Assembly: GCA_003024785.1 (NCBI GenBank)
Contig: PUQB01000457.1
Span: 124,001 to 188,000 of the forward strand
DNA length: 64,000 nucleotides
Origin: Selaginella tamariscina
Taxonomy: Eukaryota > Streptophyta > Lycopodiopsida > Selaginellales > Selaginellaceae
Reading direction: 5' to 3'
The notes under the pieces are model-generated. The model ran no database searches and had not been told where the DNA came from. It saw only the letters and a list, made by a program, of their open reading frames with translations. Positions 194 through 50,304 of this stretch are shown here, one piece after another (position 1 is the stretch's first letter; every line of letters begins with the position of its first letter). The translations under genes were made by a program, and so were the position numbers.

Positions 194-398
194 TGAAAGA
201 GCAGATATATAATGAAAAATGTTTCGATGTATTAGTTTACAAAAACCCTGCTTATATCAGGAGACTTCCTGCCACGTGGCACACATGCGACACGTGGCGC
301 TGACACATGGGGGCCAGATCACCACCCATGTGTCACTACGCATGTGTGTATATACACATGCGTATATACGGTATATTACTAATATACAGTATCTTACA
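194..398 (-). repeat. 3' LTR of the gypsy element
   Basis: This ~205 bp repeat starts TGAAAGAGCAG and ends CTTACA. It matches 4921-5121 with a few substitutions and small indels. It contains CACGTG (G-box) cores, nested ACACATG/CATGTGT inversions and TATATAC stretches, which could act as LTR promoter elements. Confidence 0.88.
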
Positions 399-415
399 CT
401 ATCCTCCCCTCTGCG

Positions 416-1710: not shown

Positions 1711-1779
1711 GGTTCATGTTTTTGAGCATCCTGCCACTGTTCCAAGGATGGTAAGTCGGCATCGAATACCTGAGGGGCT

Positions 1780-3410
1780 TGTATCAAACCGAACGCTGCA
1801 GCTACTGCATGAGCAGGCAAAGTGGAATCGGAGAGGGGTGCTCGAGAAAGTGCATCCGCATCCACCATTGTTCGCCCAGGCCTGTGCACCACCTTAAAGT
1901 TATATACCTGGAGACGTAATGCCCATCTGGCTACGCGACCCACTAAATTCTTCCGTTTTAATAAGGAAGTGACAGCAGCATGATCACACTCCAAAAGTGT
2001 TTCACTCCCATGTAAGTAGGCATGAAGTCGTTCAAAACCCCAAACAGCAGCAAGGCATTCTTTTTCAGTAGTGGAATAATTCCGCTCAGCCGGCGTGAGT
2101 ACTCGACTAATGTAAGCCACCGGGTGTCGAATTGAAGAATCCACAGCATCAGTTTGCATCAATACACCACCAATACCAACATCTGAGGCATCTACTCGTA
2201 AAATGAACGGACGAGTAAAATCTGGGTATTGAAGCAATGGTGGAGTTGTCAGGAACTCTTTTAACTGGTCAAATGCCTGCTGACACCTGCGAGTCCACCT
2301 AAAAGATACCTGTGGATGGAACTAACTCCCGAAGAAGGGGCAGTTCGATCAGTGAGATGATCGATGAATCGACCCAAGTACTGCACCGTGCCCAAGAAAC
2401 GCTGGACTTCCTGTACTGTACGGGACGAGGAACTCTCGAACAGCTCGCAACTTCATTGGATCCACCTGTAAACCCTCTCGAGATATACGGTAACCCAAGT
2501 AAGTGGTGTCGGTCGAACCAAACACACACTTTTCAAGTTTCAACTTCAGGCCAACTTCTCGAAATCGATCAAGAACGCGCCGTACATCACGAATGTGATC
2601 CTCCCAAGAACCAGACCCATGAATGAGCACATCGTCGATAAAATCGGCAGTGATATCAGGCATATCGGAAAGAAGCTCATCCATCATGCGTTGAAAGGTG
2701 GCAGGAGCTGAAGTCAATCCAAAAGGCATGACCAAAAACTCGTAAAGACCAAATGGTGTCCGGAAGGCCGTTTTTGGAATATCCTCCTCAGCCATAGGAA
2801 CCTGCCAATATCCTGATGCCAAATCCAACTTAGTAAACCATCGACTCTGACCCAAACGATCTAATAGATCGGCAGAGTTCGGAAGTGGATAGACATCTTT
2901 GATGGTAACATCGTTAAGAGGTCGGTAATCCACACAAAATCGGAGAGATCCATCAGGCTTGGGAACCAAATGAGGTTCACATGCCCATGGACTCCGTGAC
3001 GGACGACACACTCGTTTACCAATCATATCAGTAACAGCTGTTCGCATGGCTGATAACTCCTTTGGTGACCTGCGTCGAACCGGGACTTTGAAAGGCTTTG
3101 CATTGCCGGTGGGTATACAGTGTCGAGTCTTCACACGTGCACCTTGGGACAGATCAAATTTGAACAAACTTGCATACTGCTTAAGTTGTTCGATGCAGTG
3201 TGCTCGACACTCAGGTGACGGATCCGGCATTTGAACCTGTTGAGATGAACACCACCCCAAGACCGGAATCAAAGGAGCTGTATGCGTGATACAAACAGCA
3301 ACAAGCTTCTCTGGACGTAAAGGAACAGACTGCAGAGACACAGACTCCAAGCGTAATACAGGAGGAGAGAGTGAAAAATCACACATGTACCTTTCGACTG
3401 CTTTAACCAA
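1780..3410 (-). pseudogene. reverse transcriptase and RNase H (gypsy element)
   Basis: The frame 2349-3410 shows classic RT blocks in order: FCVDYRPLND, KLDLASGYWQ, TAFRTPFGLYEF, MPFGLTSAPATFQ and the catalytic FIDD (a variant of YxDD). RNase H follows at about 1780-2237, in a frame starting with FILRVDASDVGIG, then STTEKECLAAVWG and VDADALSR. The two parts are separated by a frameshift between 2237 and 2349. The domain order identifies Ty3/gypsy rather than copia. Confidence 0.88.
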
Positions 3411-3419
3411 TCACATCCC

Positions 3420-3816
3420 AGAATGATGTCAAAGACCTGGGAAGGGACAACCCTAAGAGACCCAGAGGGAAACTTACAGTTGGCACCCAAACCAGCGTAG
3501 TCGAAGTGGTGTACTGTGATACTGCACGAGACTGCCCATTACCATATAAAATGTGCAAGACCTTATCTGCACGTCTTAAGGGTAATGAGCACCGATGCGC
3601 TAGAGAAGTAGTTATGGAAGACATACTGGATCCTGTATCCACAAGCACTGTGACTGAAAGATCATTCACTCGTGCAGAAAATGTGAAAACTGGATGATCT
3701 GGTGGAACTTGCAAACCCTTGATATGCATAGCGGAAAAAACATGGAGGTGAAGTCTTCCATCGCACGGGATCCCTCCGTCGCCCGTACGATTACTGGTTT
3801 TCCGCAACAGATCCAT
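3420..3816 (-). pseudogene. aspartic protease (gypsy element)
   Basis: The minus-strand frame 3403-3816 contains VLVDTGSSMSSIT, the retropepsin active-site motif (DTGS), at about 3590-3640. A hydrophobic strand, FSARVNDLSVTV, precedes it. It lies between the gag zinc knuckle and the reverse transcriptase, as expected for Ty3/gypsy. It is frameshifted relative to the flanking pol. Confidence 0.78.
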
Positions 3817-4868
3817 GCAAGAGAGGCTTCGTCATCTGGAAGCTCATCATCAGACATAATGGCCGCCACAGGCACACCATCCGGAACATATGGTCGCCAG
3901 CCTGGATGTGGTGGACGCCAATCAGGATACACATCGCATGCCCGCCAAGTATGTCCAGGTGCCCAACAGGCCCAACAATGAACTTGATTGGGTCGACCTG
4001 CATTGTTCCGATTCCTCCTGTCACGAATCCGTGGATTTTGACCACCACGGGCAGGTACTGGAGCAGGTGCAGGACGATTTCGTGGAGGTGGTCCACGGGG
4101 TGGGCCCCGAGGTCGACCACGAAAGGCTTGTCGTGCGGGCACATATGCAGCAGCATCAACCTCCATTGGATCAGCACGCTGAACAAGAGGAGCAGGTAAC
4201 CCAAGGGGAACACGGCCCTCACCAGGCACCAACTCAAAACGTTGAGCTAGTGCAAAAGCTTCCTCCAATGTGGTAGGACGAAGAGCCCGAACGAATCGAA
4301 CAAGTTCGGGTCGCATAGTTGGCCATAACATACCGAGCTTAATAAGGCTCAGGCATGTTAGGATATGCACGCCGAACTAAATCCCCGAACCTAATACTGA
4401 ACCGCATAACAGACTCACCAGGATGTTGTCGTATCGCATGCAGTTGTTGGAAAGCATCATCTGAATCCTCAACTTTGCCAAACGTACGTTTGAGGCATTC
4501 CGTTAACCGATTACTATTGGCTTGAATCTCCGCAGCCAATCCATTATACCACTTGAGCGCAGGGCCTTCCAAACATGTAGGGAATTCTCTGAGAGCACGG
4601 GCCTCATCCCAACCATGGTAACGAACAATGACTTGGAAATGATCAAACCAGTGGTATACATCATCTCCCGGATCACCACAAAAAGATCGGGGTCGAACCC
4701 TCGGATTTGTGGCCTGTAAGATGAAGGAGTACTAGAAGCAGATCCCCCGGCATGAGGCTCAGACGGGGAAGAGGAGGACGGACCCTCAACAAAGCGCTCC
4801 AACAACTTAGTTTGTGCATCAATAGCAGTAGCAATAATGCTAAAAGCCGTCTCCATGTTCATTGTCAT
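3750..4868 (-). pseudogene. gag region with zinc knuckle (gypsy element)
   Basis: The minus-strand frames contain a retrotransposon gag segment (4339-4572, with WYNGL and GESVMRFSIRF-type motifs). A basic Arg/Pro-rich stretch follows, then a CCHC zinc knuckle CWACWAPGHTWRAC (C-X2-C-X4-H-X4-C) near 3940-3985. The N-terminal part (4503-4868) and the central part lie in different frames, so at least two frameshifts are present. Gag coats the element RNA and forms particles. This copy cannot make an intact Gag as sequenced. Confidence 0.8.
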
Positions 4869-4920
4869 GGAAACAAAAAAAGAAAAGGCGGAAGAAAGGA
4901 ATACCCAACTTCTCCACCAA

Positions 4921-5121
4921 TGAAAGAGCAGATATTATAAAAAATGTCATGATATTAGTTTACAAAAACCCTGCTTATATACAGGAGACCTCCTGCCACG
5001 TGGCACACATGCGACACGTGGCTGACACATGGGGGCCAGATCACCACCCATGTGTCACTACGCATGTGCGTATATACACATGCGTATATACGGTATATTA
5101 ACTAATATATAGTATCTTACA
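4921..5121 (-). repeat. 5' LTR of the gypsy element
   Basis: Partner of the repeat at 194-398, with the same TG...CA ends and the same CACGTG and TATATAC content. It is the 5' LTR because the coding region reads leftward from it. Confidence 0.88.
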
Positions 5122-5337
5122 TTACCTATTTATATTAATATATTTTAAATTTTAAATGTAAACTTATTATTAATGAAACTTGTAGCAAGAAAAAGCATAT
5201 TTTGATTTTCATAAGGGTGAAAGAATTTAATTTAATCTAGATTTATTTAAAATCTTGCCTTTGAGTAAAATATTAGATATGACCTGGTAAAAGTAAAAGG
5301 ATTTGTTGAGGGTGAGGCACATGTGAACCGCCTCTAA

Positions 5338-9683: not shown

Positions 9684-9710
9684 ATGCAAGTTGTAACTAA
9701 AATAGGCATG
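9684..9710 (+). repeat. left terminal inverted repeat of copy 1
   Basis: The core GTTGTAACTAAAATAGGCATG matches the inverse of 24536-24562 and the end of copy 2 at 39172-39198. Subterminal GAATATTC-type sequences follow at both ends. Confidence 0.65.
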
Positions 9711-10489
9711 GCTATAGTCCCTTTCCTAATAATTAACAATTTTAGCTATTTAATTAGCATTTCTAATATTAAAGGAATATTCTTTAGAATATATATTTGA
9801 AAATAGAATATTCTTTAGAATATTCTATTTTGTATTCTACCCTTTAATAAATTATAGCATTCATTGAACAAAATTAATAACATTATAAAAGTAGAATGTA
9901 TTAAATTATATAATAATTGCCTAATATAACAATTAAGGAAGAGCATAAGAGGTACATTATATAAATATTGATGTTGTTATTAAAATATTAATATTTAAAT
10001 ATAACATTATTAATTAAAAATTTGTAGTAGTAAATATATATATAAATCCTATAATAATATAGTCAATCTTCCATATCATTTTTTAAATTTAATAGTTAAG
10101 TATACAATTTGGTACTATTATTAAAGAGTTATATAATTATGAATATTAAATATATAATTTTATAATTTTGTAATTGCTTTAAGCTTCAGAAAACATACAT
10201 TCCCTTGCAGTTTTGTTAATTGTGACTTTATCAACGCTTCTTGACATCCACCCATATCGAATGGATTTAACATTTATAAAAACATGCTGGGTCTTTTTGA
10301 TTGGGAGACCATGTTTTCTCTAGGCATCCATTATATCTTTCGCTCTCCTTCTCGTGTCGCCTTTTTTGTGGTTTGAACCATGCAACCTTAACATAATACT
10401 ATTTTTGTGATTACTTCAGGTGTGTCGATAATTTGACCCATCCAAATAGGCTGATTATATGACGCATCGGAGTAATAGAACCATCATTA

Positions 10490-13298
10490 GTTTTTGAAGA
10501 TCCTTGCAGCAATCAAAGTATGCTTTAGGTTTTTGGTTCCTTTGTTCAACAAAGTGTGGGGTTTGCACTTCCACATCACTACTGGCTTCTATTGTCGTCT
10601 GTGCTCAGTGATGTCATTTCAATCTCCTCTGCCACCTTGTTTTAGGCCAGAAAGGGTGTTGCAATTCTGTACTTGTGACAGTAAGCCCTTCCAACTCGAA
10701 CAACAGTCTCTCCCAATAGTTGACCACATGCTTATATAGTTCTGAGTAACCAGTTGCCTTATCAGAATTCTTTGGCATCGATTTTTGAACCATGCCACAT
10801 ATTTTTTGATGCCATCAATAATAACCTCTTGTTCCTTGAGCTGGGCACTCAATGGAATAGGGTCTGGTTGTCCTTCTGGGAGAAGTGGCTTTCCATCCTC
10901 TCCACTTTTGAAGAGCATTAAGCCCTCTTTCAGTAACACTCCTGCTCTGATGGTTGTAACTTGTACTGCATAATAGGTATACCATCTCGTATGGAGAAAA
11001 AGAATTGTAGCGGCACAAGGTGACCAAGTAAAGAATCACTCCCTTCTTTTATATTACTCCTTGAGAAATTTTTTGAAGTCTGGCACCTCAGTCACAAGCA
11101 AAGCACAACTTTTTTTGGAGATGCAATTTTCAAAAGATTCATCATATGCGGTAAGGTAAGTGCACTTGTCCTTTTTTGTAGAGTTGGAGACCTTGCTGAA
11201 GAACGCATCAATATCTTCATGAGTGTGACCAATATAAAGAAACTGAGCGTGATTGTTTCAACACACCTTTGGCAACAAGCATTGACAAGTATGCTAGCAC
11301 ATATCTAGAAAATAAAAGTAAGTATGAGCTTGAGAAACCCTTAAGTAAAAATGATTTACCTATTTTTGTTCTCGCCTACACAATTATCCATCTGTAAAAG
11401 CAAATGACGAGAAGCTTATTTGATGTTGAGGACACATGTACACTATTTGAGCTAGATCCCTCCACTGAACCTGAATCTCAACAGGGCCATCTGTTTTTTG
11501 TGCAGGTTGCTGACAATGCCTCTTCATATTCCTAAGTAGCCCAAGTGCAGATGTGTTCATGAGAGCATTATGTAAAGGTTGAAGGTGTTGTTTTCTTCAC
11601 TTTGAGATCACTGATAGGACTTTGTCTGTGAGTGGGCTTCAAGGTTTCTGAAACACATGGCTACGACCCAATAGTGAAATTGGAGTCGCTTAGAGCAATG
11701 TGGAAGTGAAAAGTGTCCATATGACTCACAACCGTGTCCATGTGTTAGCACACCTGTCAATGAAATTGGAAGTTTCATGACATTTCCAAGGCACTTTTGT
11801 TGCAAAGAGCTTTGGAATGCTGGTCTTTGAAATGATCCATCTTGTCATGGATCAAGCACAGGTACTCTGATGGGCGTGACACAGAAAGCATGCGGTGTGC
11901 ATAGTACGAGACTGGCAAGTTTGTTGTGCAATCATGTGGGCCTCCATCTTCTTTGAATGGTAGTGATCTTCACCAAGGTTTTTGCACAAGCCCTGCAGCC
12001 TTCAATGATGTACAAGTGTCACTTAAAAAGCTAGAGTGTTTTGCAATCTCCACATCCTTAAAAATGAGTATTCCATATGTTGTTGAAGGTACCATTGCAG
12101 ATTGCTTGGAGCCCCATCAAACTGAGGCCACTTGTTCACATGTTCACACAGTTTCAATTGAGTGTAGATTGAAGGTAAAACCTTGAGATTTTCCCTGACC
12201 CCTGCATTTGTGGTTCGGCATTTGTGAGGCATCCTGTCTGCATTTGCTTCCACAAAAGCCTTGAGTATCTCTATGGCTGCCATGATGTGAGAGCGGGTTT
12301 TGACCAAGCCAGTGTTCCCATGAACTGAGGTTCGCGCTCCATCTAGCCACTCATCCCTCCGACGGTAGAACGTGGTCTTTGGGATCCCGTATATACTGTA
12401 CCAAGCTTTGAAGCAGATGGCCACCTTATTAAATACCATGGATGTACTCTGATAACCTGTGTCCGAGGCCATTCCATCAATACACCCAGTTAGTGCAGCA
12501 TATACAAACTCATGCCTTTGCTTTTGGGTGAGCATACGAAAGACATGTCTACATTGGGTAATTTCATTCCGGTCTGCCATCTGACAACACTTCTTCTTGC
12601 AACAGTCAATCGTGGAAATGCTCGTAACACTTTCGGAAGATGTAGGATCCATCTTTACCCTCTTGCTGAAACTTGCAGGGGAAGATCTACAACCCATGAA
12701 TCGCCTTTTTCTTACAATAGGACCAATGCAAGGAACCTCTTCAAATATGAGTTGTTCTTCCGGGTTGTTATTATTGAAATCCAACCCAGAATATGTTGAA
12801 CCATCTTGCCGTCTTAATTCAGATGTTCGCCACCTCACGAGGGATCCAGGATACAATGTGCCATTAGGTGAAACCTCTGTCACAACTACACCCACGAAGT
12901 CGGACCCTAGTTTCTCTTCTGACACTGCTTCCATTGGATTTATAGCTGTGATGATGCCTCTTCCGACTTCAATCTCACGAAGAAAGAGAATCACCTCATC
13001 CATCACAGCAGGCAAGCCATCATCTGGTAAACTCGTGCTACTATTTGTTTGTGACTCTGCATATTCTGTGTCAGCCTTGACTTCATCCAAATTCCACAAT
13101 ACAGGAGAACCCTCCTCAAATTCCATTCCCAGAACCTCAACATGCTTGTAAATGGTGTTCACCCATACGTACACACAAGATCCTTGGGCAATATTGTGAC
13201 ATGATGCATTATTATCTCGAACTTCCACAGTTCCAGTGCCAACTATCTCGTTGTTCCGAAGAAGACATACTTTATCTCCAGTATTAAACATATTGTCC
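10490..13298 (-). CDS. DDE transposase-like protein (DUF7869-type family), multi-exon, frameshifted
   Basis: The largest open exon runs from a splice acceptor at about 13298 down to 12023. It encodes about 424 residues: an N-terminal acidic region, a paired-cysteine motif CCKKKCC, and a helix-turn-helix-like IPKTTFYRRRDEWL. A frameshift ends it. The matching frame continues with SKCDTC-type cysteines in copy 2, then IHDKMDH (11830-11855), QMDNCVGENKN (11370-11400), GHTHEDIDAFF (11205-11233), and a tail with IRDGIPIMQYKL and KSGEDGKPLLPEG (10760-11010). The three aspartate motifs in this order recall the family InterPro calls DUF7869, from memory. I infer a DDE-type nuclease fold. Array 1 lies just upstream of the 5' end. 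The first exon was not found. Intron borders in the 3' half are approximate. Confidence 0.6.
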
Positions 13299-13444
13299 TG
13301 CACATAAATAATTGTATTATTTATGATATCTGTTTATGCAATATTTTAAGAAATCTGAATTACGGTTACTTAATAATATGCATATGCAATAATACATAAT
13401 TATGTTTAGAGATAATATCTCATGTTTGATTAATACAACTGATG

Positions 13445-14140
13445 GGCGGGATTAATCCCGCCCACGAATCCCTCCGACGAGGAACGGTCGGCGGGATTAA
13501 TCCCGCCGCCGACTCAACCCCTTCGGAGAGAGTCGGCGGGATTAATCCCGCCTTGGACTCCCTCCGACAAGGAAGAGCCGGCGGGATTAATCCCGCCGCC
13601 TCTTCCTCCTCGGGGGAGTCCGGCGGGATTAATCCCGCCGACTCTCTCCGACGAGGAAGGTCCGGCGGGATTAATCCCGCCGACTCTCCCCGGAGAGAGT
13701 CGGCGGGATTAATCCCGCCGGCTCTTCTCTCGGAGTCGGAGAGTCCAAGGCGGGATTAATCCCGCCCACAATTCTTACGACGGGAATGGGTGGCGGGATT
13801 AAACCCGCACATAACTCTCTCCAAAACTATGATTTCAAAGAGATCTCGGGATAAATCCTGTCCCCAAATCTTAAAACAGGGAAGTGGTGGCGAGATTAAA
13901 TCCCGCCACCCCTTCCCTGCCTCCTAAAATGGTTGGCGGGATTAATCCCGCCGACAACTCTTTCTAATAAATTCTGGTAACTCTTCATCAGTTGAGAAGG
14001 TTATCGGCGGGATTAATCCCGCCACTCTTTTTCAGTGGCGGAGAAGCATTGCCCGAGAGATGGTGGCGGGATTAATCCCGCCACCTCTTCGAAGAGGCGA
14101 AAAAGAAATGGCCGGATTAATCCCGCCGCCCGGTTAACCT
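13445..14140. repeat. palindrome array 1 (18-bp GGCGGGATTAATCCCGCC repeats)
   Basis: Eight perfect copies of the self-complementary 18-mer start at 13445, 13490, 13535, 13580, 13622, 13664, 13702 and 13749, so spacing is 38-47 bp. Degenerate copies continue to about 14140. The spacers themselves contain short inversions (CTCTCTCCGACGAGGAAG, GACTCTCCCCGGAGAGAGTC). The array lies directly upstream of the transposase-like gene. A plus-strand reading frame encoding repeated GGINPA crosses it, but this is a by-product of the repeat. Confidence 0.92.
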
Positions 14141-16694
14141 AGATAATATTAAGTTAAAAGGATATTTAAACGGGATAAATCCCTAACGGAATATATTATA
14201 ATCCTAATGCATTCCTAAACCCCTAAATTGTAATTTTAAGAGAGAATGTAAGAGAGTGAATCTTTATAAGTATTTTTAAATTTGTTTATAATACTTACTT
14301 GTAAACAGCACTGAAGGCGCCGTGCTTTCCTATAAAGAATAGCACCCAATTTAATCTCGCTCCTGAGATGATCACTATGAAGAAAAAAGAAGATCTAAAG
14401 AGTGAAAAATACAGAAATGAAGAAACCCTTGCCGGAGAAAGAACCAGATCTGAATTTGAGTGGGAAATTAAATGCATTTTCAAATTTACATGTCAGACCG
14501 ACAATACATATGTCAGAAATTCAAATTTTTTAAAAAGAACAGAAAATAAAATTTAAGATGAGTTGACACAAATATCCGACACTCTGACATATATACTCTC
14601 CAGTTCCAATGAGTATTTTAAAATTGCATTTAATGTTATTCAAGTGATTCAAGCTGTTTAATATTACGAAATTTTAGACTATATTCTACATTCTTAGTAT
14701 TCAAGTATATTATATTATATTATATATATATATATAATATATACTTATACAATAAATAAATTGATATATTATTATGTATCATTTAAAATATATTCATAGT
14801 CTGTTTATTATTATTATTTTCTTAATTACTCGAGTATTTAGTTTTCATTTCCTAGTATCAATGGGATATTCTTTAATATTTTATTAATATTTGAAGAATA
14901 TTCTAATATTAAACCTGATTATCATAATTAAATTAGTCTTGTTCTTAATTATTGCAGTAATTATTCTACATTTGTATATATTAATGGGATTTTCTCAATT
15001 AATTTGTTATTATTTCAAGAATATTCATGTGTTAAACCTTATTATCAATATTAAATTAATACACACTATGAACATATTTTAAATTATACATAATAATACA
15101 TCATTTTATCTAATATATAGTCATATATAGTTTTAATAATATATATATTAATATCATTTCCTTAATTACTTGAGTAATTAATCTTCTTTATATTAATGGG
15201 ATATTCTTTATTATTTTCTTATTATTCCAAGAATATTCCAATATTAAACATGATTATGATAATTAATTTAGTTAATTATTTGAGTACTTAATTTACATTT
15301 GTATATATTAATGGGATTTTCTCAATTAATTTCTTATTATTTCAAGAATATTTCAATGTTAAACCTTTTTATCAATATTAAATTAATATATATTATTAAA
15401 ACTATATATGGCTATATATTAGATAAAATCATATATTATTATGTATAATTTAAAATATGTTCATAGTGTGTTTATTAATATTATTTTCTTAATTATTCGA
15501 TGTTTGTTTTGCACACATATATAAACACAATCATAAATTTACACACGCATTACAAGAACTTACAAAAACACATATGCACACACATGCACAACCCTAAACC
15601 AAACTGAAGAAATATGTTGCTTCTTTATTGAAAACATCATGTTCAACGCATGTATGATATATGTACTCAATCTGTGTGTATGTAACACATTGAATTTACA
15701 TGTGTAATATTTATATTAAGCTTGTTGGGAGCAAACCCAAACCCTAAACCCTAAACCCTGTGTATACATGTGTGTACAAAAATAATTTTTCAACACTCTC
15801 TCTTCACACCATGCATGATCCATCCTAAACCCTAAACCCTAAACCCTATGTAACACAATGAATTTACTCATGTAATATGTATGTATGTCTGTGTGTATAC
15901 ACGTGTGCATGTATATAGTGTACTCTGTATGTATATATGTGTACTTTCTGTCTTCTCTCATACATACACACCATGCATGATCCATGTTAATATGTACTGT
16001 CTCTTCTCTCAAACATACACACCATGCATGATCTATAATATGTACTCGGTCTCTCAAATATTATGTACTAATATGTATGTATGTCTGTGTGTATAATACA
16101 CACCATGCATGATCCATAATATGTACTGTCTCTCTTCTCTCATATACTATGTATGTATATCTGTGTATAATATGTGTAAGTATATATGTGTACTAATATA
16201 TGCAATGTGTACAAAAATAATTTTTCAACACTCTCTCTTCTCTCATACATACACACCATGCATGATCCATCCTAAATCCAAAACCCTAAACCCTAAACCC
16301 TAAACCCATGTAATATGTATGTATGTCTGTGTGTATACACGTGTGTATGTATATATTATGTGTATTAATATATGCAATGTGTATGTATGTATTGATACAC
16401 ATGAAACTTTAACACTCTCATGGACACACACATGTTAAATCCCTGCATGATTTATATTTTTGGGGTGTATGTGATACACCCACGCACACGCACGCGCTAA
16501 TAATATAATGAAAGAATATTCGTTTAGGGCGAATCTATATTTTATTCTTTTTAGGGTTTAAGTATATTCTCAGAAGGAATATTCTATTAGGGTTAATATA
16601 TATATTTAATTCCTTTAGGGTTTAGGTATATTCTTAGGGTTTCAAGAGGCGGCGGCTGTGAAATCGGCGGCGGCGGCTGTGCACACAGGTGAGA

Positions 16695-16731
<37 letters not shown>

Positions 16732-16998
16732 ATATGTATAGGAGTGTGCGTATAAATTTATTTATTAGTTTTATCTCTCGCACACACACGCACACTCCTG
16801 TGTATGTATATGTGTGTGTGGGTGTGTGTGTTTGTTTATCTGTATGATTTTATTTGTTTCGCTCACACACGCATACACACGATATACATATACACATATA
16901 TATATACCTATATACATATATACATACATATATTATGTGTACCAGTATCTGTAAATTTTTTTTTATTGATCTATCTCTCCCACACACACGCACACTGC

Positions 16999-17056
<58 letters not shown>

Positions 17057-17814
17057 ATCAATGCATATTAACAAATAGTATACAACACTAGTTTATATAT
17101 ATGCTTATATATTCATATGGGTTATATATCTATATACACATATATATATGTGTGTGTTTATCTGTATAATTTTATTTATTTATTAGTTTTATCTCTCGCA
17201 CACACACGCACACTCCTGTGTATGTATATGTGTGGTGTGTGTGTGTTTGTTTATCTGTATGATTTTATTTGTTTCGCTCACACACGCATACACACAATAT
17301 ACATATACACATATATATATACCTATATACATATATACATACATACAACACTAGTTTATATATATGCTTATATATTCACAGACTCTCTCTCTTTCTCTAT
17401 GGATTATATATCTATATTACACATATATATGTGTGTGTTTATCTGTATAATTTTATTTATTTATTAGTTTTATCTTTCGCACACACACGCACACTCCTGT
17501 GTATATATGTGTGTGTGTGTGTTTGTTTATCTGTATGATTTTATTTGTTTCGCTCACACGCATACACACGATATACATATACACACATATATATACCTAT
17601 GTACACACATATATTATGTGTACCAGTACTGTATAATTTTATTTATTTATCTATCTCTTGCACACACGTACACTCCTATACATATACATACATACATATA
17701 TATATATATTATATATATATATACACACACACATATATATATGTGTGTGTTTTTATCTGTATAATTTTTTTATTTATTAATTTTATCTCTCGCACACACG
17801 CTAAGCCCCTCGAG
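14141..17814. other. element spacer: AT-rich DNA, telomere-like tracts and microsatellites
   Basis: No gene is supported. 14150-15480 is AT-rich and carries four related ~170-bp segments of TTAATGGGATATTCTTT / CAAGAATATTC type. 15510-16310 carries short AAACCCTA tracts (15735-15758, 15827-15848, 16270-16305) and repeats containing CACCATGCATGATCCAT. TTTAGGGTTT motifs recur at 16550-16645. A GGCGGCGGCTGTG run lies at 16650-16685. From 16690 to 17800 there are TG/CA and TA microsatellites in tandem ~350-bp blocks. The counterpart in copy 2 is 44805-49234. Confidence 0.75.
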
Positions 17815-19400
17815 CGGCGGGATTAATCCCGCGCTATAGGTTTATGGCCTCAGCGGCGGGATTAATCCGCCGCTATATGGTTGGGGCCATGGCGGCGGGA
17901 TTAATCGCCGCGAGGCCCTTCACGCGGCTATGGGGCGGGATTAATCCCGCCGCTCTACGACAAACCGAAATGCGGCGGGATTAATCCCGCCGCACCCATG
18001 CCCTGCGCGGAATGCGGCGGGATTTATCTCGCCGGCAATGGCATGTGTGAAGGCCCTAATGGGCGGGATTAATCCCGCCGGATTCGCGCAGGGCATTTAC
18101 AGGGGATGGCGGGGGATTAATCCCGCGCTCATGAGGCTAACGAAGAGCCTGCAGGAAAGTCCTGCACAGAAGGCTAACCGAAGAGCCTGCAGGAAAGATC
18201 CTGCACGGAAGGCTAACCGAAGAGCCTGCATGACATGTCCTGCACGTAAGGCGGCGGGATTAATCCCGCCGCCTAGGGAATTCACGCAGGACATGAACGG
18301 CGGGATTAATCCGGCCCCACGCTCATGCCCTTCGCGGAGGGGCGCGGGATTAATCCTACCGCTTAGGCACTTCGCAGGATATAAGCGGCGGGATTAATCC
18401 CGCCCCCACCCATCCCTGTTCAAAATGCCGCAGCCAATATATATGTGTGAGCGCATGATTTACGAGAGGGCGGGGGATTAGTCTCTCCGAACCTTCATTA
18501 CCCGGTGGCGGGATTAATCCCGCCACCCTTCTTTTATTCCTCCATTGGTATGTTGAATCAATCCCGACTAACTCTGTCTGAGACGGAGAAGGTTTACAAA
18601 TACCAATGGAGGGAACTGAGAAGGGTGGTGGGATTAATTTCACCATCCCTTACATGGTGGGCGGATTAATCCCGCCGCGTACGCATGCCCTGCGCGGAAT
18701 CGGGCGGGATTTATCCCGCCGCCATTGGCCTTCCTGAAGGGCCTAGGCGGCGGGATTAATCCCGCAAGATTTCGCACAGGGCATTGGCGTTCGGTGGGAT
18801 TAATCCGGCCGACTAAGGCCTGAGTGAAGGGCCTGGGATGCGGGATTAATCTGCCGCGGTACGCATGCCCTGAGCGGAATCGGGCGGGATTTATCCCACC
18901 ACCATTGGCCTGCCTGAAGTGCCTAGGCGGCGGGATTAATCCCGCCCAGTTCCGCGCAGGGAATTGGCGTCCGGCGGGATTAATCCCGCCGCATAGGGAC
19001 CGAGTGAAGGCCCTGGGCGGCGGGATTAATCCCGCCGAGTCTTCAATGCCTGTTGGAGGAATGAATCCCGCCACCTTCTCTTTTTTCTCCATTGGTGAGT
19101 CGGACCAATCCCAAACGTTTCTGTCTGAGACGTAGAAGGTTTTCAACATACCAATGGAGAGAATTGGGAAGGGTGGGGAAATTCATTAACCATCACTTAC
19201 ATGGTGGGCGGAATTAATCCCGCCCCTTTCTGGAGTCACTGAAGGGGTGTGAGAAATAAATCTGCCCAGTTCTCTCTGAAACCGAGAAGGGTGGCAAGAT
19301 TAATTCCGCACTCCCGTTCAAGGCCTCCAGAAAGGTGGCGAGATTAATCCCACCCACTCTTTCAGGAGGCATTGAAGGGGTGGCGAGAATCCCGCCGCAC
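17815..19400. repeat. palindrome array 2 (diverged GGCGGGATTAATCCCGCC repeats)
   Basis: About 25 to 30 full or diverged copies of the same 18-bp palindrome recur at roughly 40-70 bp spacing, between low-copy linkers such as CATGCCCTGCGCGGAAT and GGCCTGAGTGAAGGGCCT. It contains a 38-bp tandem triplet (18138-18252) and two copies of a ~74-bp hairpin with CTCCATTGGTA / TACCAATGGAG arms (18540-18612, 19089-19162). It lies upstream of the ParB/methyltransferase-like gene, mirroring array 1 beside the transposase-like gene. Confidence 0.9.
18138..18252. repeat. three tandem ~38-bp repeats within array 2
   Basis: The unit is CGAAGAGCCTGCAGGAAAG then TCCTGCACGGAAGGCTAAC, present three times with slight divergence. 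Each unit holds an internal inversion, CTGCAGGA/TCCTGCA. Confidence 0.8.
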
Positions 19401-19510
19401 CTTCCATGTGAATATATATGTGTATTAGTATATATAAGTTGCATATCTCATTTTATTTACTTTTATCATTTTATCATAATATTTCGAGTAAAAGCTAGGA
19501 AACTATGTAA

Positions 19511-19597
19511 AACTGTCCAGAGCTCACATTTGTGGTGGTTCTAAAACGAAATGTTATCTTTCTTTTGCACTAACACAAATGTGAGCTTCGGACAGTT
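19511..19597. repeat. hairpin upstream of the ParB/methyltransferase-like gene
   Basis: AACTGTCCAGAGCTCACATTTGTG (19511-19534) pairs with CACAAATGTGAGCTTCGGACAGTT (19574-19597), leaving a ~39-base loop. In copy 2 only the first arm remains, at 43861-43893, because a deletion starts just after it. Confidence 0.75.
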
Positions 19598-19739
19598 AAT
19601 TACGTCTACTTCTTTCTGTGTATTATTTTTGTATATTCGGGTTTATACAAGTGTGTGTGCGTTTTTATATAATTTATATTTATAGTGTATTATTTTGCAG
19701 AAGGACGATTTGATCAAACAAGGAGATCGAGTCATTAGT

Positions 19740-22700
19740 ATGGAGTCGTCGTCAAATTCTGGGTAAGAATTAAAATAAAATCTGTTATATTCGGATACTT
19801 GAACTAATCATTTTTGTATTCAGATGTGAATTGAGGTCATTAAAGACAAGACAGGAGAAGAGATGGGCAGGGGGATTCTGGAATTAACATGGCCATATTT
19901 TAAGATAAATGGGAAGCGCATTGGAGCAACCATGGCTGCTGTCAAATTAACCTCTGTCACATCTCATGGACAAGCAAAACAATGGAAAGTAGATTCGCTA
20001 GTCAAGCACACTGAAAGCAGGCTGCGAACCCAGATTGGACGCATTCTCGATAGATATGCCTTGTTCCATCCAATGTCACGTTCTCGGATCCAGAGGTCGT
20101 CAGTTACAACATTAATTTCGGGTGGTTTTGTCAACTTGTGGATAATGACGTTCACGTGTTCACATGATGTTGACCTTGGAGTTTTCTTCAAACTCATGAA
20201 AGCCCATCTATGGAGGGATTCACATCTGGATGTCTACTTCGAAAATCTTCAGACTCATCGAGTAGGTGTATTGTCAGGAGATATTGCTTCACAATACAGA
20301 AAATCAGCAAGTGGAGCAATCGTCCCTCTTCACATTGAAGAAGAACACAACGACATCATAATGGAGATTGAGAGGGTGGCTCGGTCTCAGGTTCTCTACA
20401 GATCACGTTCAATTTGCTTAGGGAGCTTTGGGAGCTGGAAGAGTGTACCGAGAACACTAGAACAGCTGCAGTCGGGGATCACACATGTTTGATTCGGATC
20501 GCAAAAAAAATCATCAAAGTTTTGTCAGCTGCACCTGTGGCATCTCATGCTGCAATAAGTCACAAGGAAAATGTGTTGGATGATAAGATTTATCCTTGTA
20601 GGGTTAAATATTGCAGCGTCAACCCAAACTTCAATTACAGGCCACTCAACCAGGAACGTGTAGCTGAGCTCATGGAGAAGATGAAGGACGACAATTCTTA
20701 TACCGTTCCACATAATGCTGTTTTGTGTCCATACTATGAAAGAAGGAAGGGCGCTGACAAAGTCTGGATCACAACACCAGAACAACTCATGAAGATTCAG
20801 ACGGAGAATAAAAATCTATCAAGTACTACATCATTAGTGGCCAGCACACAATAACGGCAGCCCAACGACTTCTCGAGAACACAACAAAGGAACGATGGCA
20901 ACAAAACTTTCCGAGCATACCCGTGAGAAGCTGACAAAAAGATCGGCGTTTTTAGCTAAGCCGAATCTCACAATCGAGCAGTACCATAAGTTATCGGCGG
21001 AATGGGACGCTGCCGACACCAACCACTACAACAGCAAAATATGGGAGAAGTTTAAACACACGCGAGCCGTGTGGGAATCTCTTCAGCGACCACAAAGAGC
21101 TACCGCAGGGAATACACAATCTGCGGAATACCGGGTAAGCAAATTGTTTGGGCGGGATTTATCTCGCCGGTATATTAATCTGTCTTTTTCCTCAGAGAGT
21201 TGAAGAAATTGCAGCAGTTGATTTTGCCCAGGTGGGCGGGAAGGAAACATCCTTTCTGATGATGTTGATTTCTTGCCCCGAAGATAGGATCTTTGCCAAA
21301 TGGTTGGGGATTATGGAATCCTTTTCAAAAGGAACACTGAAGAAGAAGCAGACAAGTGAAGGGGAGCCCTCAGAAAAGTCTGCAAAGAAACCCAGTAAGA
21401 CGCCGAAGGCTAAGTCTGTTCAATCTACAAAGGATGTAGACAACGATTTCAAGCTCACATGGTTGAAGCCTTTAAATGGAACAACGATGGAGGAGATGGA
21501 AGTCTTGGCTGATTTGGTGATCGATGGCAAACTACAAATTAATAACAGCAGCCCAACCTCTCCTTTTCATCTCAAGGCAATGGAGTTGAAGACGGTCAGG
21601 CATTTCAAGGAGTGGTTGGGAATACACTGCCACAAACTGGGTTGGACCTCGACTTCAACATATGAAGAGGTCAGCAAATATTTGCATGTGACGAACGATG
21701 ATATGCTTGTCGAATGGGTGAACCAATCGGAAGATCTGGCAAGAATCTATTGCACGCCAACGCCAAAAAGGAGAACATTGGGATGACGCCTTCTCTTATG
21801 GCAGTCCTTCAGCAGCGGAGAACCGAATTGAACCTTATAAAGGAGGATGCTACGAATCACGACAAGCCCTACAGATGTTTGTTGTTAGATTCGGAGACTT
21901 TATGGGGTAACATCACTGCTTGTAGGAAACCGTTTCAATTGTTCGTGATGGATCGGCGGGTGTCAAAAAATCTTTCGACAGATAGGGCACTAGAGGATCT
22001 GGTGGAGAAACTTAGCCGTGCAAGCATATACATAGAAGGTATTTATTATTGAATTCATGCTTGCGCTCTTCACTGATACCTACTTTTTCAGGTATTTATT
22101 TCTTGATTCTTGCTCATGTCACCGATACTTTTGCCTTCGCCTTCGCCAAGAAGAATAGACATCGTTGGACAGGATTTTATATGAACGATGCTAATCCCAA
22201 GTGCATTGATACCGTTGTTCACTTGGTTGTTAGGAATGCGCCAAACAATTTCAAGCTTCCAAATGACTGGCCAGGCATCTGTTTGCACTCCAACGGCCCT
22301 GAACCTCCATCCGATACACCGATAGGTATGAGTGACGTATTCGGCAATGTACGTTATCCAAACATTACAAGTCAAGCGGCACGGAGCATCGTCAACTTGA
22401 TTAGGGGTCCTCACAGTGATGCGTGGGTTTTTGACTACTGCACTAGGGGGTCCGTCTTGAAGGAGTGTTACCTTCGGCATACATGTGTGTTTGCCGTTGA
22501 AAAGGATAAGACCATGGTTGAGGACCTGAACAAGTGGATAGATTGGGTCTCAACTGAGTACCCCAACGATTCCATAAAGGCGTATTTGAGAAAGTTCCCT
22601 CCAGATAAGTGCGATAGCTCTGAAGGTGAATCTGGTTCAATCTCGGAGTCTGAGAACGAACTTCAATCAGATATTAGACCGGAAGTTATCTCGAGGAGTA

Positions 22701-22837
22701 CAGAACATTCGCACACTCCAGGACCCATGGAAACATCAATAGAAGATGCAGAAGATCTTGAACCATCTCACAAGCGGCTTAGACCTTCTTCGCCTCACTC
22801 AGAAGGTAATAGCGAAGAAGAATTGATAATGAATTGA
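19740..22837 (+). CDS. ParB-like plus DNA methyltransferase-like protein of the large element
   Basis: A multi-exon plus-strand gene. A short first exon (MESSSNSG, 19740) may lead into a frame at 19863-20492, which has no recognised domain. From about 20550, VKYCSVNPNFNYRPLNQERV...ELMEKMKDD leads to YYIISGQHTITAAQRL near 20820-20870. This has the layout of a ParB/sulfiredoxin-type fold. Introns at 21135-21195 and 22039-22091 have good GT-AG ends. Downstream, FQLFVMDRRVSKN (21930-21970) sits where DPPY (motif IV) occurs in beta-class DNA methyltransferases. Then ITSQAARSIVNLI and VFDYCTRGSVLKE...CVFAVEKD (22421-22507) resemble the C-terminal motifs X and I. An acidic Ser-rich tail ends at 22837. 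Catalytic DPPY is absent, so activity is doubtful. Single-base indels near 20811 and 21738 break the frame relative to copy 2. Confidence 0.55.
21148..21167. promoter_or_regulatory. diverged palindrome inside the gene's intron
   Basis: GGGCGGGATTTATCTCGCCG lies within the 61-bp intron 21135-21195 of the ParB/methyltransferase-like gene. It is an isolated variant of the array palindrome, far from both arrays. The equivalent site persists in copy 2, as GGTGAGATAAATCCTGCC near 43100. Confidence 0.6.
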
Positions 22838-23093
22838 TAGAGTGATGAATAGTTGTAAATGAGTGTAACATAAGGCATTTTTGTATATTTCTTTTATATT
22901 TGTACAGAAAATAAATTCTCAAGGATTAATGAAGCTTTTAGTTCAAACATGGGTCACACATTAACAAGGTAAATAATATACCTTGATAATTTTAAGGTCA
23001 GCTAATTATCATTTTGCAGATGTAATGAAATAATTGAGAACATGGATTTTCAGCATTGCATGAGGTAAGAGAGGGGTTTGGCGACAATTTCTT

Positions 23094-24047
23094 GTGCCAC
23101 ATGTCAGAATGACAGAGTTCATGCAGGAAATGGATAATAATGCAGCTCAAAACATCGTTACCATGGGGGCCACTTCATCATCATTTTTATTGGCTTCAGT
23201 TCCGAAATCAATTTCTTCAGCGCATGCAATATCTGAATCTTGTAAGGATGATGTACAATTAAATGATGAAGGGATAGGCAACGAAATAGTGGCAACGGAT
23301 AAATGTGAAAGGGAGCAAACAAGTGATTTGCAAAGTATTCAAGAGGCAACGCTATCTCATGTTACTCATGGCCATATTGTGTTGTTGGATGTCAATGGTG
23401 TTCTGCTTCATCGACAAAGGCCCCAGGATAGAAAAACAGAAATCAAACAAGGAGATTTCATTCCTTGTCATGGTAAATTTCGATATGATATTATTTTTCG
23501 TCCAGGGTTGGATCGTCTCTTTCAAAAGCTTAAGGAGATGGGTGCGCTTGTGGGGATTTGGTCATGCATGCAGATTCATAACTTAACACCGCTGTTGAGT
23601 TTACTTAAGAAACATTGTAGTGTTGCAGAAGAGGTGATTCGTAAAGATTGGATTTTTGACCAGCGAATGTGTCATAAACCTCTCGAATTTCACAATATAA
23701 GAAAGGAAAGCAAGCCATACTTCTTCAAGAATGAAAGAATAATTGGGACTCATGGGGAGATCAGTCGCTTAAGGATAACGAAGAATGCACATATCTTAGT
23801 AGTAGACGACTCTCCTCAGAAGGCTATGCTCAACCAAAACATTGCTTGTATTCATCCAATCACTTTCGATCCATATTCTGATACCGATATCATGGATGAG
23901 CTAGTGAACTACTTGGATACGTGCCTCAGAAAGAAGAATCTCGAAAATTTTTGTGAGCAGTATCCACCGTATCATACATTTCCTGAAGCTTTTCTTTCTC
24001 GTGATATTGAATTTTATAAAATGAAGGATAGCAACCGGGCTTTATAA
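23094..24047 (+). CDS. FCP1/NIF-type HAD phosphatase-like protein
   Basis: A 317-residue open frame. After an N-terminal ~100-residue low-complexity region come HAD superfamily motifs. HIVLLDVNGVLLHR is motif I, with the DxNGxL variant seen in plant FCP1-homology proteins. ALVGIWSCMQ is the motif II region. A conserved lysine region (YFFKNE) precedes ILVVDDSPQKAMLNQN, the motif III/IV-like DDS. Such proteins dephosphorylate proteins, classically RNA polymerase II C-terminal domain serines in the FCP1/SCP branch. The substrate here is unknown. It lies 256 bp downstream of the ParB/methyltransferase-like gene on the same strand, inside the element. It is duplicated in copy 2, which argues for a stable cargo gene. 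The frame may continue beyond the stop (see next entry). Confidence 0.75.
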   Translation: MPHVRMTEFMQEMDNNAAQNIVTMGATSSSFLLASVPKSISSAHAISESCKDDVQLNDEGIGNEIVATDKCEREQTSDLQSIQEATLSHVTHGHIVLLDVNGVLLHRQRPQDRKTEIKQGDFIPCHGKFRYDIIFRPGLDRLFQKLKEMGALVGIWSCMQIHNLTPLLSLLKKHCSVAEEVIRKDWIFDQRMCHKPLEFHNIRKESKPYFFKNERIIGTHGEISRLRITKNAHILVVDDSPQKAMLNQNIACIHPITFDPYSDTDIMDELVNYLDTCLRKKNLENFCEQYPPYHTFPEAFLSRDIEFYKMKDSNRAL

Positions 24048-24057
24048 TATTATTCTT

Positions 24058-24273
24058 AAGGAACGTCAGTTTTTAGATGAGCCTTTATGCAGACCTTCTC
24101 TTATCACATCTTATGTATTAACAAGGATGGCAACTCCCAATTGCATTCGTGAGAGTGTTAAGTGGTGGCAACAACATCAAGATATTGACCAAAATGATTT
24201 GATTAATCCGGAGAGTGATGATTTAGACAAAATGAAAAGATTTCTTTGTATGATAGAAAGAAAGTATTTATAA
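24058..24273 (+). pseudogene. out-of-frame C-terminal extension of the HAD phosphatase gene
   Basis: Ten bases after the stop, a different frame stays open for 71 codons to 24273. It looks like protein (KERQFLDEPLCRPSLITSY, then RESVKWWQQHQDIDQND) and ends RKYL. Copy 2 retains recognisable counterparts at about 39470-39690. The simplest reading is that the original protein was about 390 residues long and an indel near 24045 now truncates it. Confidence 0.5.
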
Positions 24274-24529
24274 AAAAATTAACATGTTGATAAGAAAATG
24301 ATTTCATTTGTAATTATGTTTGATAGTATTTCTTCATTATTGTAAACTATTTTTAGAATAATATGAATATTCTAAGATATTTTAGGAATATTCCTTACTA
24401 AGTAAGGTTATTGAAGGATTAATTAATTAATTAATTAATATTTAAGGCTTAATTACATATTAATTAAATGATTAATTAATAATTAAAACTTAAGTATTAA
24501 TTAGTAATTTATTTTATATTCCCATTTTC

Positions 24530-24562
24530 ACGTATCATGCCCACTTTAGTTACAACGTGCAT
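24530..24562 (-). repeat. right terminal inverted repeat of copy 1
   Basis: On the minus strand this reads ATGCACGTTGTAACTAAA then GTGGGCATGATACGTG. It matches the left end at 9684-9710 over ~27 bp and copy 2 at 39172-39203 over 32 bp. Confidence 0.65.
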
Positions 24563-29674: not shown

Positions 29675-30340
29675 CTGGTTAAAAGCAAAACTTGATTCAA
29701 GTGGTTGAATTATATTATTGGTGGTCACATTCAACTTGTCACACACACAGGATATGAATACACATACATATGTAATAAGAAATTAGAAATATAATAATCA
29801 TTTGAAAATTATGCTATACAAATATGTATATGAATGGTATGTGTGAGGATGAACCCAATTGTACAGTGCAGTGACCACAGAGAGAATGTTCAAGCCTTGA
29901 GAAACCGGAAACACCGTCCAGCCTTGAACATAGGCATGCGTGTGTATTACAGCGTAATAGTAAAAGTTATTTTCTGAAAGCTTATGAAATTGAAAGAGTT
30001 GAGATACCTTGATCCATTCAGAACCCTGCTTATATACACAGTATATAGTCCCAGTGGGTCTCATACACAGGAGCTTCTACATTATTGTGTATGCGTGCGT
30101 GCGTGCATGTTTGTATGCTAATAAAAAAAATATATCGCATATACGCTGATATTCTAGTTCAAGTTAATATTGTTTACTTCCGACAGTGGGACGTGAAACA
30201 TGGTTTCTTTTTTTTGTTAAATTTGCCGCCTCTTGTTCTGTGCAAAAAAGATTCTATCAAGCTTAACATAATTTCTATCACACATAGTTTAAAAGCCGTG
30301 GAAAATGTAACTTAACAAACTTCATGGTCTGAAAGGTTTT

Positions 30341-31350
30341 CTAAACTCCGAATTTGTTGATCCATCTTTCATGCTCATCCACGATCGGTCCAGTGAAAGA
30401 GGCCCAGTAAAAGCACTGTTCCCTCCTCAAGGGGGATACCTCCTTTGAGACTGAGACTGAACCGGAGCCTGGTGTTACTATGTCTATGCTGTCTATTGAC
30501 AGTCCGTAAGTCCAGTCCCGAAAGTGAGTTTCTCTTCCTAGAAACCTGCTGTTTATCCACAACACTTGAACTCGGCCTCTGCTTGGGAGCACTCTGCGAC
30601 CGTGCCTTTGCCTTTGTGGACTTTGTGAAGCCATGTAATTCGGGTACAAACCACCGTACTCGTCATAAAACACTTCATCAGCCTGATCACTTCTGTTGGA
30701 CCGGTAATGGAAGCTTGTCGATTGCTCTTGGCTGCTTTTGAACCTGTACTCGACAATGAAGGGCTGCTTTTAGCAGTCGACATGAAACTCCTCGTCCTCG
30801 AACTCGTTATACTCTCCACCATGGTGACGGTAGTTTACCTCTTCATATCTCTTTGAACCGTAGTAATGAGGCGGCTGGTCGGGGATGAGCATACCGCCTT
30901 CACAGCATATGGACTCACCAGAGGACTTTTATGGGACGACGGACCTTCATCTTTCCGGGATCGACCTCAACAACTTTGGCACTCCCATCGGAACTCTTGT
31001 CGTGCAGAACTGCCTCGGGGGCTTTTCTTGAGTCATGTAGTGGAGGGTTCTCCCATGGATGTGCGTCCATCCATCCCTCTAGCCAGCTCCACTCCCATGG
31101 ATGTGTCTCCGAGTTCATGTCAAGATCCTCTCCTCTCTGAAAAAGAAAACATTCATAATTATCATCAAAAGACTGCGTATTACCCACACATTACTGCTAA
31201 ATACAAATATATGTGGTGCACCCGACCCGGTTTGATATAAGGGCTTTATATAATCACAGACAAAGGATTTCTATGCTACTAACTTGCTTATGTAGATATA
31301 TAGCCTTGACACAGCATACAACCTATACATACATACATACATACATATAC

Positions 31351-31403
<53 letters not shown>

Positions 31404-31988
31404 AGAAGACATATATATATATTTATATGCATGTCATACATACACACGAGAGAGAGAGAGAGGTTCGAGTAAACTTAACCTGCTGCCCAGAGACATAAGC
31501 CATGGCTCTGTCACGTTGAGCACACCTATCTGCCTCGATCATATTTCGTCTGCAAATCGTCTAACCTCGTTATACTTGAGTCCCATCCATCCTAGAGATT
31601 AACAAAAGCAGTTAATGTATGACATTATACATACATTCTACATCCCCTCGTACACCAAATAATCAATTGATGAACAACAGCTTAACACGGATTTTCTTGG
31701 TCGGACTTGCTGCTGCTGTTGACGGCAATAAAGAAGCTGCTGTTGAACAGCCTGACCTTCCTCAGAGTTTCTAACACGTTTAGCGCGGACATGGGCTTGA
31801 ACTTTCACTAATGCTTGCATGCAACGAAGTGTAAGTGCTGCTTGCTTGCGAACAAGGTGGCCTCTAAACAATGCTTGCAATCTAACCACACCTTTAAGCG
31901 CTCTCGGTGCTCTCCTAGCCTGTACATAACAATAATATCCATTGTGATGCACCAACTATATATATACGTGACAACTTACCAAGTACCA
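30341..31988 (-). pseudogene. 5'-truncated IQD gene copy
   Basis: This carries the IQ67-domain exon ([39 protein letters not shown]; 31700-31925), the [15 protein letters not shown] exon (31490-31590), the WSWLEGWMDAHPWE exon (about 30920-31140) and the C-terminal exon (PNYMAS at ~30640; stop at 30341). It begins at the GTACTTG/GTAAGT junction of the IQ-motif intron, so the start codon, nuclear-localisation region and first IQ half are absent. One-base deletions relative to the other copy (for example CACGTTGAG for CACGTTTGAG near 31525) break the frame. It cannot make a normal IQD protein. Confidence 0.85.
31361..31462. repeat. AG/GA microsatellite
   Basis: Three AGAGAG runs interspersed with ATATAT sit in an intron of the truncated IQD copy. 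They are missing from the parental intron at 56240-56310. Confidence 0.9.
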
Positions 31989-39171: not shown

Positions 39172-39203
39172 ATGCACGTTGTAACTAAAATGGGCATGAT
39201 ACA
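39172..39203 (+). repeat. terminal inverted repeat of copy 2
   Basis: ATGCACGTTGTAACTAAAAT then GGGCATGATACATG, matching the reversed right end of copy 1 (24530-24562) with two mismatches. It abuts the copia integrase fragment ending at 39170. Confidence 0.7.
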
Positions 39204-50155: not shown

Positions 50156-50304
50156 TCACCAGTTGTATTAAATAAGCATGATAATTTATGTTTATACATA
50201 ATTTATATATTATTACACACGCATATATATTAAGCTCTCGATTTAGATTTTTTGGAAATATTGTATAAACAGATATCATAAATAACACAATTATTTATGT
50301 GTAG

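Follow-up and report, generated by a model that had tools for sequence, protein, structure and literature searches.

A decayed ~15 kb DNA transposon in Selaginella tamariscina, probably Sola-like, with a phosphatase gene, a putative ParB-methyltransferase gene and palindrome arrays

Introduction

What kind of element fills the roughly 15 kb between two matching inverted ends, at positions 9684 and 24562, in a 64,000-nucleotide stretch of the Selaginella tamariscina genome, and does it have relatives among the transposons already described? The stretch – hereafter the window – comprises positions 124,001 to 188,000 of the forward strand of contig PUQB01000457.1 (assembly GCA_003024785.1). An original prediction, made from the letters of this DNA alone, had proposed a mobile unit with a DDE-like transposase, a ParB-methyltransferase-like gene and an HAD phosphatase, accompanied by two palindrome arrays and an inverted second copy.

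A decayed plant DNA transposon of ~15 kb is present at 9684–24562 (copy 1). From left to right it carries the transposase gene on the minus strand, a first palindrome array, an AT-rich and microsatellite-rich central spacer (14145–17800), a second array and, on the plus strand, the ParB-methyltransferase-like gene (gene 2) and the phosphatase gene. Our preferred reading, to which we assign a probability of about 0.68, is that of a giant land-plant transposon of the cut-and-paste kind, which most likely belongs to the Sola group (Sola-1-like) and has genes for a ParB-methyltransferase-like protein and an NIF phosphatase as its accessory cargo.

Terminal repeats and insertion site

The left terminal inverted repeat, ATGCAaGTTGTAACTAAAaTaGGCATG (9684–9710, plus strand), and the right one, ATGCAcGTTGTAACTAAAgTgGGCATG (24536–24562, minus strand), agree at 24 of 27 bases, and both start with (A/C)GTTGTAAC. 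As a control, the best 27-mer match was recorded between Markov-resampled versions of the flanking 600-bp stretches; over 200 such pairs the maximum was 22 and none reached 24, so the matching ends of ~27 bp proposed in the original prediction are borne out. Exact matches to the 12-base core of the repeat occur in the window at 9690, 24545 and 39178 only, which are three ends of the two copies; with two mismatches allowed, the core occurs 14 times against 9.8 expected, in itself weak evidence.

When 11 end offsets were compared at lengths of 2–10 bases, the sole equal flank of at least three bases in copy 1 was TGCA (9685–9688 on the left, 24558–24561 on the right). It offers an ambiguous candidate for a 4-bp target duplication; if it is one, the element proper would run from 9689 to 24557.

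Short GAATATTC palindromes also lie near both ends of copy 1, with three sites in 9775–9825 and two in 24365–24392 (17 window-wide, a count for which no chance expectation was computed). They are possibly subterminal binding sites.

The second copy

Copy 2 lies inverted on the minus strand, from 39172 to about 52122. Its main aligned blocks pair 11429–24562 of copy 1 with 52122–39172 at identities of 85.3, 85.8 and 84.8%, and the last of them runs precisely to the outer limit of the terminal repeat, 24562 in copy 1 and 39172 in copy 2 (where the repeat occupies 39172–39198, plus strand); the DNA outside is unlike. At its other limit, the alignment stops at 52122 opposite position 11429 of copy 1, so the left terminus of copy 2 counts as missing, and no transposase-side end was found for it in the window, given the three exact core matches listed above. 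The second, inverted copy described in the original prediction, alike in gene order, is there at ~85% identity, but it lacks its transposase-side end and the catalytic portion of its transposase gene. Similarly, the expectation that similarity between the copies should end at the proposed termini holds at 24562/39172 but has no counterpart at the left terminus, where the end of copy 2 is missing.

The two copies have also been rearranged relative to one another. A 445-bp piece of gene 2 is internally inverted in copy 2 (22149–22594 in copy 1 versus 41147–41587 in copy 2), and ~860 bp of copy 1 (19541–20403) are missing from copy 2. Neither copy retains an unbroken frame for the transposase or for gene 2, and that of the phosphatase is open in copy 1 alone, being broken in copy 2. 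A further ~1.35 kb of copy 2 (47186–48540), adjoining AT-rich repeats, has no counterpart in copy 1 (14842–14866).

A transposase of the DUF7869 family

The transposase gene of copy 1 (10288–13300, minus strand) consists of an N-terminal open reading frame (ORF) and a catalytic part related to DUF7869, with its frame broken after about 12023. A stitched read – copy 1 joined across the frame breaks, with copy 2 letters in places – matches the Pfam family DUF7869 (PF25273) at E=4.5e-33 and 114.9 bits against a cut-off of 26; the unedited ORFs alone match no Pfam family significantly. Four relatives were found among 6929 protein candidates, at 25–38% identity in the alignment, and two of them, P0001 and P0002, carry DUF7869 themselves (E=7.6e-48 and 2.6e-45; 163 and 155 bits).

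Independently of the stitched read, a tblastn search of the raw DNA with P0001 (1055 residues) recovered seven collinear pieces in copy 1 that span residues 5–1012, with E from 2.6e-70 to 2.4e-7. In copy 2 the same search recovered residues 276–595 only, and nothing beyond about residue 595 of the 1055 matched better than E=4.

The acidic motifs HDKMDQ (residue 525), QLDNC (662) and GHTHEDID (699) of P0001 have counterparts in copy 1 and form a D...D...D/E pattern, separated by about 135 and 40 residues, in which the third acid, D or E, is ambiguous. Together with the DUF7869 match of the stitched read, they uphold the proposed DDE-like transposase and place gene 1 among the DDE/D-type transposases of the DUF7869 family. 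An AlphaFold model of P0001 built with four sequences reached a mean predicted local distance difference test (pLDDT) score of 33, too poor for a fold search, and for this reason we infer, rather than report, an RNase H fold.

Palindrome arrays between divergent genes

The 18-bp palindrome GGCGGGATTAATCCCGCC occurs 61 times in the window at up to three mismatches (38 in copy 1 and 23 in copy 2), against 0 expected. With up to five mismatches allowed, copy 1 has 45 sites (20 perfect) and copy 2 has 34 (two perfect), with none elsewhere in the window. This confinement to the two copies, at such an excess, bears out the two arrays that had been claimed.

Most of the palindromes sit between the divergent genes. 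Array 1 (13445–14127), upstream of the transposase start, has 13 units at up to four mismatches, whose palindromes carry 1.93 bits per position and their flanks 0.52; array 2 (17816–19396), upstream of gene 2, has 26 such units, with 1.6 versus 0.25 bits. Degraded counterparts, recognisable by their palindrome matches, lie in copy 2 at 43996–44781 (for array 2) and 49247–50157 (for array 1). Over the arrays as a whole, the palindrome carries 1.5–1.93 bits per position and its flanks 0.25–0.65, and spacing is mostly 37–48 bp. An additional site with two mismatches (21151–21168) falls within the first probable intron of gene 2, and a degraded one is found at 43097, in the corresponding part of gene 2 of copy 2. 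Constant sites between variable spacers form the pattern expected of protein-binding sites, which is how we putatively regard them.

The possibility of a CRISPR-like array was rejected: the spacers are merely variable, with no unique units, and the repeat lies in a promoter zone. When viral contigs were searched for the exact palindrome, it turned up in a single contig, a match taken for chance.

Gene 2, a putative ParB-methyltransferase gene

Gene 2 (20412–22834, plus strand) is frame-broken and is supported by motifs recognised by eye and by an excess of third-position differences between the copies; an upstream ORF at 19863–20492 may be its 5' part. Two probable introns, both recognised by eye from their GT...AG borders, lie at 21135–21195 (the one with the palindrome inside) and 22039–22091, plus strand. 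The readable protein would have about 670–950 residues. A ParB-like stretch, NFNYRPLN...YYIISGQHTITAAQRL, again identified by eye, is followed by a methyltransferase-like stretch, FQLFVMD...FYMND...WVFDYCTRGSVLKECYLRHTCVFAVEKD, in which motif IV would stand ahead of motif I.

This order – a ParB box, then a methyltransferase with motif IV before motif I – is shared with phage ParB-methyltransferases, although the phage proteins have TDPPY and GGSGS, neither of which is intact in gene 2, and profile similarity to them is not significant. A structure model of exon 3 alone reached a pLDDT of 37, too poor for a fold search. The identification of gene 2 as a ParB-methyltransferase is weakly supported, by the order of its motifs and by precedent in the literature; the observations that tell against it are weighed below.

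An NIF-type phosphatase gene

Gene 3 (23094–24047, plus strand) is a 317-residue ORF for an NIF/FCP-type HAD phosphatase. The predicted HAD phosphatase is confirmed at the level of the family, since the unedited copy 1 frame matches the Pfam profile NIF (PF03031) at E=1.4e-11 and 44.7 bits (cut-off 21.8). The NCBIfam dullard-like profile TIGR02251 scored under its cut-off (15.6 bits, E=0.011), sequences in the PDB gave chance matches only, and no relative appeared at E up to 10 among 904 protein candidates.

The first motif of HAD phosphatases is DxD, with two aspartates. Copy 1 reads DVNG at this place, and copy 2 has the same AATGGTGTT / AATGGT stretch; as the second residue is N in both copies, catalysis by the predicted phosphatase is uncertain.

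Coding constraint and cytosine decay

To what extent were these genes once maintained as genes? Comparison of copy 1 with copy 2, omitting gap or stop codons (the stops number 3 in the transposase, 8 in gene 2 and 7 in the phosphatase), gave differences at codon positions 1/2/3 of 35/28/44 in 483 transposase codons, 97/75/123 in 746 gene 2 codons and 44/29/46 in 299 phosphatase codons. The corresponding ratios of nonsynonymous to synonymous substitution rates (Ka/Ks) are 0.49, 0.43 and 0.48, and the wrong-frame controls gave 0.52/0.69 for the transposase, 0.68/1.12 for gene 2 and 0.61/0.81 for the phosphatase. The selection signal is clear for gene 2, and the comparison argues that gene 2 did encode a protein when the element was still alive.

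The decay itself also has a direction. Measured against a copy 1-like consensus, 79 of 92 palindrome deviations in copy 2 run from G:C to A:T, versus 24 of the 68 found in copy 1. Across the three main coding blocks, a copy 1 cytosine is replaced by T in copy 2 in 27.4% of CG, 22.6% of CHG and 11.9% of CHH contexts, and the reverse figures, for cytosines of copy 2 that read as T in copy 1, are 11.9, 8.3 and 5.5%. This pattern is the footprint of plant-type cytosine methylation, stronger in copy 2, and is consistent with a silenced element.

Relation to known transposons

The closest precedent by description comes from algae. In the brown alga Ectocarpus, the Sola-1 transposon Sola1-1_Ec32 (21.5 kb) has, on the strand opposite to its transposase, a gene for a 1104-residue protein with ParB-like and methyltransferase parts (PMC12477816; this and the other papers cited by PMC number are drawn on in excerpt). 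The same work refers to reports of similar proteins in green and red algal transposons, suggests that the ParB-methyltransferases of algal transposons bind and modify their own transposon, for which its excerpts name no target site, and describes giant KDZ and EnSpm elements as well. Like Sola1-1_Ec32, the Selaginella element is a giant DNA transposon with an accessory gene opposite the transposase; it differs in its host, in the shorter readable protein and – as far as the excerpted account goes, which mentions neither for Ectocarpus – in its phosphatase gene and palindrome arrays, the two being compared by description only. On our best reading, the phosphatase and the arrays are what is new relative to the algal elements.

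Sola elements have a DDD transposase and 4-bp duplications, measure mostly 2–9 kb with some above 15 kb, and are present in Physcomitrella and rare among flowering plants (PMC10741241); a Physcomitrella Sola1 is also listed elsewhere (PMC9033089). The Selaginella element resembles these plant Sola elements, which include those of a moss, in its possible 4-bp duplication, its putative D-type triad and its large size, and differs from them, in a comparison by description only, in its accessory genes, which the excerpts of these two papers do not mention. Capture of genes is on record for Sola2, in which Fanzor genes occur together with 4-bp duplications (PMC3627910). More distant parallels are the giant EnSpm elements of red algae (PMC12477816) and the fungal TET/JBP transposons (PMC12730594), which are likewise large and carry accessory genes, some of them DNA-modifying, but belong to other superfamilies, with other accessory enzymes and hosts that are not plants.

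Our literature search found no publication on the three-gene set in a land plant, nor such a plant element in the excerpts of PMC6431247 and PMC8226300. For land plants, the original claim to know of no described transposon with this gene set agrees with the literature searched; it needs correction in view of the Ectocarpus Sola-1 element, which already combines a transposase with a ParB-methyltransferase gene (PMC12477816).

Weighing the alternatives

Several observations weigh against the preferred reading. Membership in Sola is likely rather than established, as it is judged from descriptive features. The TGCA duplication is ambiguous, because TGCA is itself palindromic and is also present at the copy 2 end, so that it may equally belong to the terminal repeat. 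Only two copies are seen within the window, and copy 2 is truncated. Wrong-frame Ka/Ks values of 0.52–0.69 and 0.61–0.81 leave the selection signal weak for the transposase and the phosphatase. To these must be added a series of results on gene 2: searches of Pfam, NCBIfam, PHROGs and PDB sequences gave no significant match and no ParB or methyltransferase family. An hhalign comparison with eight phage ParB-methyltransferases (loci L004–L007 and L009–L012) gave a non-significant E=0.16. A query with ParB of phage phiEf11 had yielded nine phage matches, of which these are eight; the ninth was left out as its ParB part alone is annotated as one gene. At least 5 of 60 shuffled controls outscored the ParB part of gene 2 (18.94), and the methyltransferase part (12.97) fell under the shuffle mean of 15.3. 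At the place expected for a DPPY-type motif IV, (D/N/S)PP(Y/F/W), copy 1 reads MDRRVSK and copy 2 MDQLVSK.

It is thus conceivable, if in our judgement doubtful, that gene 2 encodes an unrelated, lineage-specific transposon protein whose resemblance to ParB-methyltransferases arises from chance motifs. The lack of a significant profile match in any test and the missing DPPY-type motif speak for this explanation, and no homologue appeared among the 7988 protein candidates listed, nor anything at E up to 10 in a tblastn search of phage genomes. Against it, the best local alignments, themselves not significant, fall on both diagnostic places in the correct order – YYIISGQHTITAAQRL on the phage ParB box, then WVFDYCTRGSVLKECYLRHTCVFAVEKD on methyltransferase motif I – and gene 2 occupies the position, opposite the transposase, of the ParB-methyltransferase gene of Sola1-1_Ec32, as described in excerpt. 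The predicted ParB-methyltransferase-like gene accordingly survives in its motif order and loses ground in its profile matches and its missing DPPY. Even with a methyltransferase fold, its catalysis would be doubtful, as DPPY reads DRR or DQL in both copies.

An unlikely alternative accepts the DUF7869 transposase and the cut-and-paste scheme and places the giant element in another or an undescribed superfamily – CACTA/EnSpm-like, KDZ-like or new – that captured accessory genes of the same kinds. Two of the transposase relatives match Transposase_23 (TNP1/EN/SPM) weakly at their N termini, with E=0.00066 and 0.0029, both under the Pfam cut-off, and we found no paper that mentions DUF7869. By definition, CACTA/EnSpm elements have CACTA/CACTG ends and a 3-bp duplication, and KDZ elements an 8-bp target duplication; both assignments were rejected, as the ends of copy 1 lack CACTA/CACTG and a 3-bp duplication, and no 8-bp repeat occurs at any of the 11 end offsets. 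Accessory genes do move between transposon superfamilies in fungi (PMC12730594), and the giant KDZ and EnSpm elements of PMC12477816 also favour this alternative, in each case on the strength of an excerpt.

That the copies are two old remnants, with host genes trapped between unrelated ends and no joint movement, is highly improbable: a single clear boundary is common to both copies and copy 2 is without its other end, but the three genes, their order and orientations and the arrays are alike in both copies at ~85% identity, and the DNA beyond the shared end is unlike. A viral origin was rejected, as no relative turned up in viral contigs scanned with four queries: the transposase alignment, P0001, the phosphatase and exon 3 of gene 2.

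Genomic neighbourhood

Around the element lie genes of the PPR, IQ-motif, CHAT and amino-acid-permease kinds. An HSP20 gene at 29219, whose best PDB match is the chloroplast protein HSP21 (E=8.1e-33), supports a probable plant host. A host segment of ~2.2 kb with an IQ-motif gene is directly repeated at 29730–31987 and 54669–56831 (89–94% identical); the two stretches are separated by ~25 kb and lie on either side of copy 2. The host gene at 36750–37634 has a CHAT protease domain (E=3.8e-42) and also a weak separase-like match. At 194–5124 lies a degraded Ty3/gypsy-type long terminal repeat retrotransposon, with direct repeats (194–401 and 4921–5124) that are ~92% identical and enclose minus-strand coding sequence for reverse transcriptase, RNase H and Tf2-1-like SH3 domains. 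No Rfam family matched the window at gathering scores.

Proposed mechanism and implications

How might such an element have worked? Returning to the preferred, Sola-like reading, we suppose that the transposase would excise the element at its 27-bp inverted ends and insert it, presumably as a single unit, at TGCA. The accessory genes, predicted to encode a ParB-methyltransferase-like protein and an NIF-type phosphatase, run in the direction opposite to the transposase. The symmetry, conservation and spacing of the palindromes, which stand about 45 bp from one another just upstream of both divergent genes, suggest binding sites for a dimeric protein of the element. Because ParB proteins bind palindromic sites, the simplest candidate binder would be the ParB-like domain of gene 2; an alternative would be the transposase or its N-terminal domain. 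Binding by the ParB-like domain would place the gene 2 enzyme on the promoters of the element, where it may mark or bridge its own promoter region. A role of the phosphatase in transcription is a guess based on the family to which it belongs.

Taken further, these steps lead to a picture of a self-marking transposon, which we offer tentatively and consider more doubtful than the reading on which it builds. The ParB-like domain would bind the palindromes, and the methyltransferase would set a bacterial-type mark, N4-methylcytosine (4mC) or N6-methyladenine (6mA), on the element's own promoter zone, against CG/CHG silencing by the host; alternatively, with motif IV lost, the protein might form a bridge by binding alone. 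A phosphatase of the type that acts on the C-terminal domain of RNA polymerase II would adjust transcription, and the palindromes would represent the target site of algal-type ParB-methyltransferases.

If the preferred reading is true, such elements would be known from land plants as well as algae, their gene set would come to include an NIF-type phosphatase, and DUF7869, an unexplained Pfam family, would gain a role as a transposase domain. With a specific, abundant palindrome that is confined to the element and sits in the right place, the idea that algal ParB-methyltransferases bind their own transposon becomes directly testable.

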